From assembly GCF_014863405.1 (NCBI RefSeq), contig NZ_JACZZA010000002.1, positions 62,001 to 126,000 on the forward strand: a stretch of DNA of 64,000 nt, in the 5' to 3' direction. A model generated the notes under the pieces. It had not been told where the DNA came from. It did no database searches and saw nothing but the letters and a program-made list of their open reading frames with translations. Within the stretch, counting starts at the first letter, position 1; every line of letters begins with the position of its first letter. A program made the position numbers and the translations under genes. This DNA comes from Dyella acidiphila. Its GTDB lineage: Bacteria > Pseudomonadota > Gammaproteobacteria > Xanthomonadales > Rhodanobacteraceae. Positions 35,602 through 35,916 of the stretch are shown here, piece by piece.

Positions 35602-35916
35602 CTACAAACGGAGCACCAGGTGCAGGGTGGATTCCTTCTGGATGTTGTAGTCGCTCAAGGTACGCCCGTCTTCCAGCTGCTTGCCGGCAAAAATAAGCCG
35701 CTGCTGATCGGGAGGAATCCCCTCCTTGTCCTGGATCTTCTCTTTGGTGTTTTCGATCGTATCGCTGGGTTGAACCTCAAGCGTGATCGTCTTGCCGGTC
35801 AGCGTTTTGACGAAAATCTGCATGGCCATCGCCGCCGGCGAGAAGCCCAGGGCCGAGACCACCAGTAGCGCCAGCATGCATGCCATCAACCGTGCACGAT
35901 GTTTCCGGATTTTCAT
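35602..35916 (-). CDS. Exported ubiquitin lacking the C-terminal RGG
   Basis: A 104-aa precursor. Residues 1-31 form a Sec-type signal peptide: basic start (KIRKHRAR), hydrophobic core ([14 protein letters not shown]) and an AMA cleavage site. The predicted mature chain starts exactly at ubiquitin Met1. Its 73 residues match human ubiquitin except Gln18 for Glu, Thr26 for Val and Glu28 for Ala (human sequence from memory). All seven lysines and the Leu8/Ile44/His68/Val70 patch are kept. It ends at Leu73, so the RGG tail needed for conjugation is absent. GGAGA lies about 7 nt before the ATG at 35916. It follows the repeat-protein gene by 24 bp. No E1, E2, E3 or deubiquitinase gene is near. Bacteroides fragilis has a comparable exported ubiquitin; other bacterial ubiquitin-like systems are far more diverged. 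Confidence 0.96.

Follow-up and report, generated by a model that had tools for sequence, protein, structure and literature searches.

An exported ubiquitin nearly identical to the human protein and its repeat-containing partner in Dyella acidiphila and related bacteria

The window analysed in this study, a stretch of 64,000 nucleotides from Dyella acidiphila, encodes a putatively exported form of ubiquitin, the tagging protein of animals, plants and fungi, whose mature part is nearly identical to the human protein and whose gene constitutes, with that of a second exported protein, a two-gene cassette that is most likely gained and lost as one. It belongs to a family of exported bacterial ubiquitins that is much wider than we have found described, and it represents a conserved and mobile variant of a kind founded by BfUbb of B. 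fragilis. As to its role, we propose, with a confidence that approaches but does not reach an even chance, that the protein would act as a non-conjugating, non-covalent ligand in a unit of antagonism or host interaction that includes its partner, with eukaryotic targets slightly favoured. The same design recurs across several phyla and among both isolates and finished genomes, either as a cassette or at the head of larger exported proteins, and it poses the testable question why bacteria without a recognised ubiquitin system retain an almost unaltered ubiquitin outside the cell. The two-gene unit, with strains that naturally carry or lack it, offers a defined system for experiment.

The ubiquitin gene extends over positions 35602..35916 of the minus strand, stop codon included, and encodes 104 residues from an ATG at 35916, which is preceded at about 7 bases by the sequence GGAG; an alternative TTG start at 35931, contained in the list of open reading frames, would give 109 residues. 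A promoter and terminator scan revealed nothing exceeding chance. Residues 1-31, encoded by 35824..35916 on the minus strand, constitute a signal peptide ending in Ala-Met-Ala, which is followed by residues 1-73 of ubiquitin (35605..35823, same strand) without the tail residues 74-76. In comparison to what we take to be the human sequence, 70 of the 73 residues are identical and the differences are E18Q, V26T and A28E, as an earlier note on this DNA had stated; a phmmer alignment to PDB polyubiquitin is consistent with this comparison. The seven lysines are all found, as are L8, I44, H68 and V70, which bears out the retention of the lysines and of the Ile44 patch described in the same note. 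The match to Pfam PF00240 has an E-value of 2.1e-32 and scores 111 bits, where the cut-off is 25.4, and chance is excluded as the cause of the window ubiquitin. A search of the window genome returned a single match to exported ubiquitin.

The signal peptide is of a typical kind, called from its hydrophobic stretch and the AXA motif, and it places Ala-Met-Ala directly before Met1 of ubiquitin. The exactness of this junction, which had been pointed out before, is reflected in other bacterial proteins. A pattern scan of 84,980 species genomes yielded 315 confirmed matches, and since the best 80 of these 315 were taken, conservation figures derived from them lean to near-human sequences, whereas our surveys with PF00240 are less biased. 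Among 82 exported ubiquitins from a set that includes these best 80 of 315, an AXA-like site is located at the exact Met1 offset in 76, compared to 0-42 of the same 82 at 18 neighbouring offsets, and with the survey loci added it stands exactly before ubiquitin residue 1 in 104 of 112. In these statistics, as in the surveys and in the counts of reading frames described below, a hydrophobic stretch of at least a set hydropathy before the domain was taken as a signal peptide, with one locus (L196) above this cut yet counted as being without one. The export of an intact ubiquitin body proposed earlier is thus supported by the signal-peptide sequence and the comparison of residues, and export by the Sec pathway and cleavage by signal peptidase I would release a protein that starts at ubiquitin Met1.

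At its other end, the window protein stops after L73 with the sequence LRL. R74, G75 and G76 are missing, and the protein would consequently be incapable of normal conjugation. Within the eight known cassettes, RLRGG is present in five (G009, G035, G146, G158 and the viral contig L084) and lost in three (the window, G149 and G157). Since the motif comes and goes, C-terminal conjugation appears unlikely as a common mechanism, and conjugation by a host enzyme could occur for the five that retain it. In a count on loci that include the best 80 of 315 matches, the di-glycine at 75-76 is retained in 6 of 72.

The partner gene (35941..37062, minus strand) is located upstream of the ubiquitin gene on the same strand, at a distance of 24 bases from its ATG. 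It encodes an exported protein with six repeats spaced about 59 residues apart, which matches the NCBIfam family TIGR03803 (GloVer) with an E-value of 3.7e-17. The six repeats suggest a six-bladed propeller, and the protein probably adopts such a propeller-like fold; the top match in a PDB profile search, at a non-significant E-value of 0.032, was the designed protein Pizza6, presumably a beta-propeller. In all seven Rhodanobacteraceae genomes that contain an exported ubiquitin, the partner directly precedes it on the same strand, the six other partners being 57-72% identical to that of the window, and no third gene common to the cassette sites of these seven genomes was found. Four of the seven encode GGDEF proteins at a distance of up to about 6 kb, which are 28-41% identical between settings and common in these genomes. 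Among 61 relatives, partner and ubiquitin are both found in the same 3 and neither is found in the remaining 58, and in the genus, ubiquitin was detected in 2 of the 16 genomes searched. A partner profile run on open reading frames of at least 120 residues from all loci collected by then matched only the cassettes, the paralogues in the window genome and the IMG/VR contig L084; the partner had no match in plasmid records and no relative in two further viral-contig scans. That the partner is able to exist alone is illustrated by the window genome, which contains elsewhere a 40% identical paralogue and a fragment, with no second ubiquitin match found. At this locus (L162, G000:C11:813160-815357) the fragment lies before the paralogue, and no ubiquitin copy was detected alongside.

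The insertion site is bounded on the downstream side by a gene for a Sel1-like protein (34628..35380, minus strand; the Sel1 match is under the Pfam cut-off), which is conserved in cassette-free genomes, and on the upstream side by one for a GGDEF protein (37290..38852, minus strand; assigned by Pfam). In four of eight relatives' regions (G007, G013, G015 and G011) the site is free of the cassette, with the Sel1-like and GGDEF genes adjoining at a distance of about 190-360 bases; in the stretches of the remaining four there is no ubiquitin or partner match and the surroundings are altered. By their flanking genes, the cassettes occupy about five settings, one shared by the window and G009, separate ones for each of G035, G157 and G158, and a further one that G146 and G149 probably have in common. 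On the viral contig L084, partner and exported ubiquitin, the latter ending in RLRGG, are found on one strand, while the opposite strand holds matches to DarA_N, a pyrophosphatase, a tail fibre and a tail-fibre-assembly protein. It thus seems that a phage is able to carry the pair. A cyclophilin gene adjoins the pair on this contig (L084:262-10080). Phage records contained no match to the L084 partner or to the exported ubiquitin. Three plasmid records match ubiquitin, and on plasmid pRUMAL01 of Ruminococcus albus 7, a signal peptide and ubiquitin are part of a protein of 246 residues annotated only as ubiquitin family protein.

Bacterial ubiquitin-like conjugation operons are of the E1/E2/JAB type. 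The window gene shares with them the presence of a ubiquitin-fold protein in a bacterium but differs in being exported and devoid of tail glycines, and in line with the earlier note, which had placed it outside such an operon, there is no Pfam match to E1, E2 or JAB among 13 neighbouring proteins. Pfam assigns these neighbours to M1 peptidases, Sel1-like, GGDEF, Fic, HipA_C, adenylosuccinate synthetase, Band_7 and GTPase families, with the products of 35941-37062, 33922-34521 and 38864-40318 remaining without match. A genome-wide search for E2 (PF00179) was equally without match, with its positive control likewise silent, and a library of defence systems had no match for three window proteins.

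The near identity to human ubiquitin might arouse suspicion of contamination, of a chimeric assembly or of a functionless gene captured very recently, and 11 of the 93 bacterial ubiquitin reading frames described below have no recognisable signal peptide, some of which may reflect eukaryotic contamination of bins. For the window gene we regard such explanations as extremely improbable. In a search of 233 Rhodanobacteraceae genomes, PF00240 matched in 10 and exceeded the cut-off in 9, of which seven encode a signal peptide followed by ubiquitin, whereas in two (G166 and G173) the signal peptide is absent. The question raised before, whether relatives keep the gene with its signal peptide, is thus answered for some of them, and three of the seven carriers (G009, G035 and G146) are single-contig genomes. 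Named isolates also contain the gene, the nearest loci with a name among the best 80 of 315 matches belonging to Dyella sp. OK004 and Dyella sp. ASV24. The third-position GC content of the ubiquitin part tracks that of the flanks in 82 exported ubiquitins (r 0.87, best 80 of 315 matches included) and is thus host-like. The grounds for doubt named before, a chimera or absence from all relatives together with eukaryote-like codon use, are not borne out in light of these relatives, the host-like GC content and the empty sites, and the nearly saturated synonymous divergence between sister cassettes speaks against recent capture. With respect to origin, the near identity to the eukaryotic protein implies an ultimately eukaryotic source, and this part of the proposed gene capture stands, whereas a specifically animal donor is not supported. 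Pro19, Glu24 and Ser57, which had been read as animal-like markers, are uninformative on the donor because S19 is found in a sister cassette (G035) and both S19 and D24 in the L084 copy. Assignment of a donor by phylogeny was abandoned, as a tree built from 115 sequences and 72 columns has no more than 2 starred branches among its 112 inner ones.

The long residence of the gene is reflected in its divergence. In 21 pairs formed by seven cassettes, mature ubiquitin shows a mean pS of 0.727 and pN of 0.068 (pN/pS 0.09), compared to a pN of 0.391 for the signal peptide and to a pS of 0.673 and pN of 0.259 for the partner. Synonymous sites across the seven cassettes are near saturation. Judged from these sequences, the ubiquitin gene has long resided in these bacteria, with its product under purifying selection and its signal peptide drifting. 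The pS values of ubiquitin and partner show a positive trend over the pairs, which are not independent, but miss conventional significance (Spearman 0.42, p 0.056). Of 72 ubiquitin sites, 15 vary among the seven cassettes, and these comprise 7 of 14 positions that we take to form the hydrophobic core as opposed to 8 of 54 or 8 of 57 on the surface (Fisher p 0.009 or 0.007, and 0.0016-0.0094 after removal of close relatives). The listed positions of the Ile44 face, the Ile36 patch, the K11 side and the K63 side are invariant in all seven, and K29 is substituted in two. The surface is thus held more strictly than the core, in a reversal of the usual pattern that points to recognition of this surface by another molecule. 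Neither the 82 top matches (p 1.0, best 80 of 315 included) nor a pool of 32 sequences from the surveys (p 0.65) shows this difference; L196, L202, L208 and rows with low scores had been removed from the survey sets. Conservation of the core equals or exceeds that of the surface in the set from Verrucomicrobiota (12 sequences), where K48 and Q49 are the most variable sites, and in that of Ruminococcaceae type (9 sequences). The argument from the surface is therefore confined to the set of seven cassettes and does not extend to the wider family.

Our view of this wider family is based on 90 loci, composed of the best 80 of the 315 matches, seven viral-contig loci and three from the window genome and its relatives, from which 93 ubiquitin reading frames were counted after removal of L090 and of a poor second frame in L066 from an initial 95. 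In this set, with the best 80 of 315 included, 72 frames combine a signal peptide with ubiquitin and a further protein part, 10 carry a signal peptide and stand alone (five from Rhodanobacteraceae, four from Pedobacter cryoconitis and one from the phage contig) and 11 are without recognisable signal peptide; the 72 fused proteins contain Autotransporter (19), Dockerin_1 (7), SLH (5), GLUG (5) and IPTL-CTERM (4) domains and, in one case, a type IX sorting domain. In the four surveys of other taxa described below, too, exported ubiquitin is mostly the first mature domain of a larger protein. Named isolates among the best 80 of 315 include Cohnella, Paenibacillus, Ruminococcus albus 8, Rhodoferax lacus, Pedobacter cryoconitis, Loktanella and Conexibacter. 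One locus of P. cryoconitis (L044:7237-8636) contains four exported ubiquitins in tandem, each of which stops at residue 72-73 and thereby has no glycine tail.

In the surveys, whose matches were selected independently of their closeness to human ubiquitin and which are named after what their central locus suggests, PF00240 exceeded its cut-off, besides the 9 of 233 Rhodanobacteraceae genomes, in 2 of 321 genomes of Gammaproteobacteria and in 15 of 300 from a family centred on a Ruminococcaceae-type genome. The corresponding figures are 14 of 387 for the phylum of a central Akkermansiaceae genome (Verrucomicrobiota) and 2 of 395 for the class that contains Pedobacter (Bacteroidia). With the central genomes left out, a signal peptide followed by ubiquitin was found in 6 of 232, 1 of 320, 9 of 299, 12 of 386 and 1 of 394 genomes, respectively, and in 29 of 1631 for the five surveys together; L126, L128 and L208 are each represented among the survey sequences by the best frame of a shared locus and thus recur as repeated rows. 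The identity of signal-peptide forms to human ubiquitin varies between near-complete and 38 of 76 residues, and such a gradient is consistent with a long stay in bacteria. We found no paper on this wider family among the matches listed in a search of the open-access literature, which leaves most subscription journals outside. In the Ruminococcaceae-type survey, a minus-strand array at L184:10500-12003 (G702:C22) comprises four small genes that all encode a leader resembling LSEEELELVIGG, presumably a bacteriocin-type double-glycine motif, which in three of the four precedes a domain whose match to PF00240 exceeds the cut-off. No peptidase-type ABC transporter was recognised by eye among the reading frames of 19 kb around this array.

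To our knowledge, BfUbb is the sole characterised exported bacterial ubiquitin. This product of the ubb gene of B. fragilis is secreted, cut exactly before Met1, devoid of terminal glycines and equipped with a C-terminal cysteine. It shares 63% identity with human ubiquitin, bound human E1 and acted as an inhibitor of ubiquitination in vitro (PMC3352274). Synthetic BfUbb inhibits other B. fragilis strains, whereas bovine ubiquitin had no effect on the sensitive strains tested; beta-propeller genes are located near the BfUbb gene, and the species is described as one of a few bacteria with a eukaryotic-like ubiquitin (PMC5705921). The window protein resembles BfUbb in its signal peptide cut exactly before Met1 (type I in BfUbb, in the window called from the hydrophobic stretch and AXA), in its lack of a C-terminal di-glycine, although five of eight cassettes keep RLRGG, and in its patchy distribution among strains. 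The adjacent six-repeat GloVer protein, if a propeller as its repeats suggest, would add a parallel to the beta-propeller genes near BfUbb. The window protein differs by the absence of cysteine from a mature part that ends in R-L, by 70 of 73 residues shared with the human protein instead of 63% identity, and by its conserved pairing, as no conserved two-gene unit is described in the portions available of both papers (PMC3352274, PMC5705921). The plant-parasitic nematode Globodera rostochiensis uses a ubiquitin with a secretion signal as effector (PMC5705921), which in that account differs in its eukaryotic producer and in a C-terminal extension of 12 residues that is cleaved in the plant. Compared to eukaryotic ubiquitin as defined by PF00240, the window form is near-identical in sequence, with all lysines and the Ile44 face, but is exported, ends at residue 73 without R-G-G and has no recognised conjugation genes alongside.

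In our preferred reading, a folded body that offers nearly the whole eukaryotic recognition surface without a di-glycine tail would, after a putative passage across the outer membrane, bind targets outside the producer, which may be ubiquitin-recognising or other proteins engaged non-covalently. The partner, as an exported and probably propeller-like protein, would work together with it, and the targets of the cassette would be eukaryotes such as grazing protists, towards which we lean because surface rather than core is kept in the cassettes. The precedent of BfUbb supports the biological activity of an exported ubiquitin. Against this reading stand the delivery to a eukaryotic cytosol that it would require and the action of BfUbb itself on bacteria. 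A secreted ubiquitin of the window type might instead be a bacteriocin that kills related bacteria via a target in their envelope, with the partner serving in delivery, processing or self-protection, an explanation that we consider a serious possibility, though one clearly below an even chance. It would be in line with the killing of conspecific strains by synthetic BfUbb and the beta-propeller genes reported in its vicinity, with a patchy presence and a phage-borne copy that suit a weapon, and with the Ruminococcaceae-type genome in which three of four genes with a double-glycine leader carry a PF00240 domain. An antibacterial binder, however, needs no near-complete eukaryotic surface, as illustrated by the 63% human identity of BfUbb, and the failure of bovine ubiquitin to inhibit the sensitive strains tested also argues against it. 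A peptidyl-prolyl isomerase reportedly decides sensitivity to BfUbb (Jiang et al. 2024), and a later paper cites that work in this sense. Isomerase neighbours were sought for this reason, and the cyclophilin gene adjoining the pair in L084 would favour a bacteriocin, whereas a strict motif scan, with ad hoc patterns that can miss some, detected an isomerase in only this one of 95 loci, so that such a neighbour was rejected as a general rule. In G173 of the Rhodanobacteraceae, the gene of a diverged cyclophilin directly precedes one for a ubiquitin-like protein that has no signal peptide (L099:231-1734); this cyclophilin escaped the motif patterns and was not counted as enrichment.

In a different explanation, ubiquitin would merely serve as a stable, quickly folding first domain for exported proteins. 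Its placement in other phyla at the head of widely differing surface or secreted proteins and the drift of its surface in the less biased surveys conform to such a structural cap or spacer. In the family of the window, however, ubiquitin is a protein of its own that leaves no further part to be capped, and retention is stricter for its surface than for its core; we regard this role as improbable. Between the remaining two, an action on eukaryotic targets is slightly favoured, with antibacterial activity of the BfUbb type close behind. On a more speculative level, exported ubiquitin may be a general extracellular module of bacteria, captured from eukaryotes, set exactly behind the signal peptide and either joined to surface or scaffold anchors of many kinds, such as autotransporter, dockerin, S-layer or IPTL-CTERM parts, or released alone, which in Rhodanobacteraceae would have become a mobile, phage-carried two-gene cassette whose surface is selected by ubiquitin-binding proteins of grazing protists; we hold this wider proposal to be possible, though less likely than not.

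Two further features of the window concern its remaining sequence. A Fic/DOC-family protein is encoded at 29186-30736 between two M1 peptidase genes and had no tblastn match in the fetched stretches of relatives. The palindromic repeat GGTTACGCTGCGCTAACCCAACCTAC, with inverted arms 30 bases apart, is found at 12793-12874, 16850-16931 and 34522-34603, corresponding to 6 observed matches of its arm compared to 0 expected.
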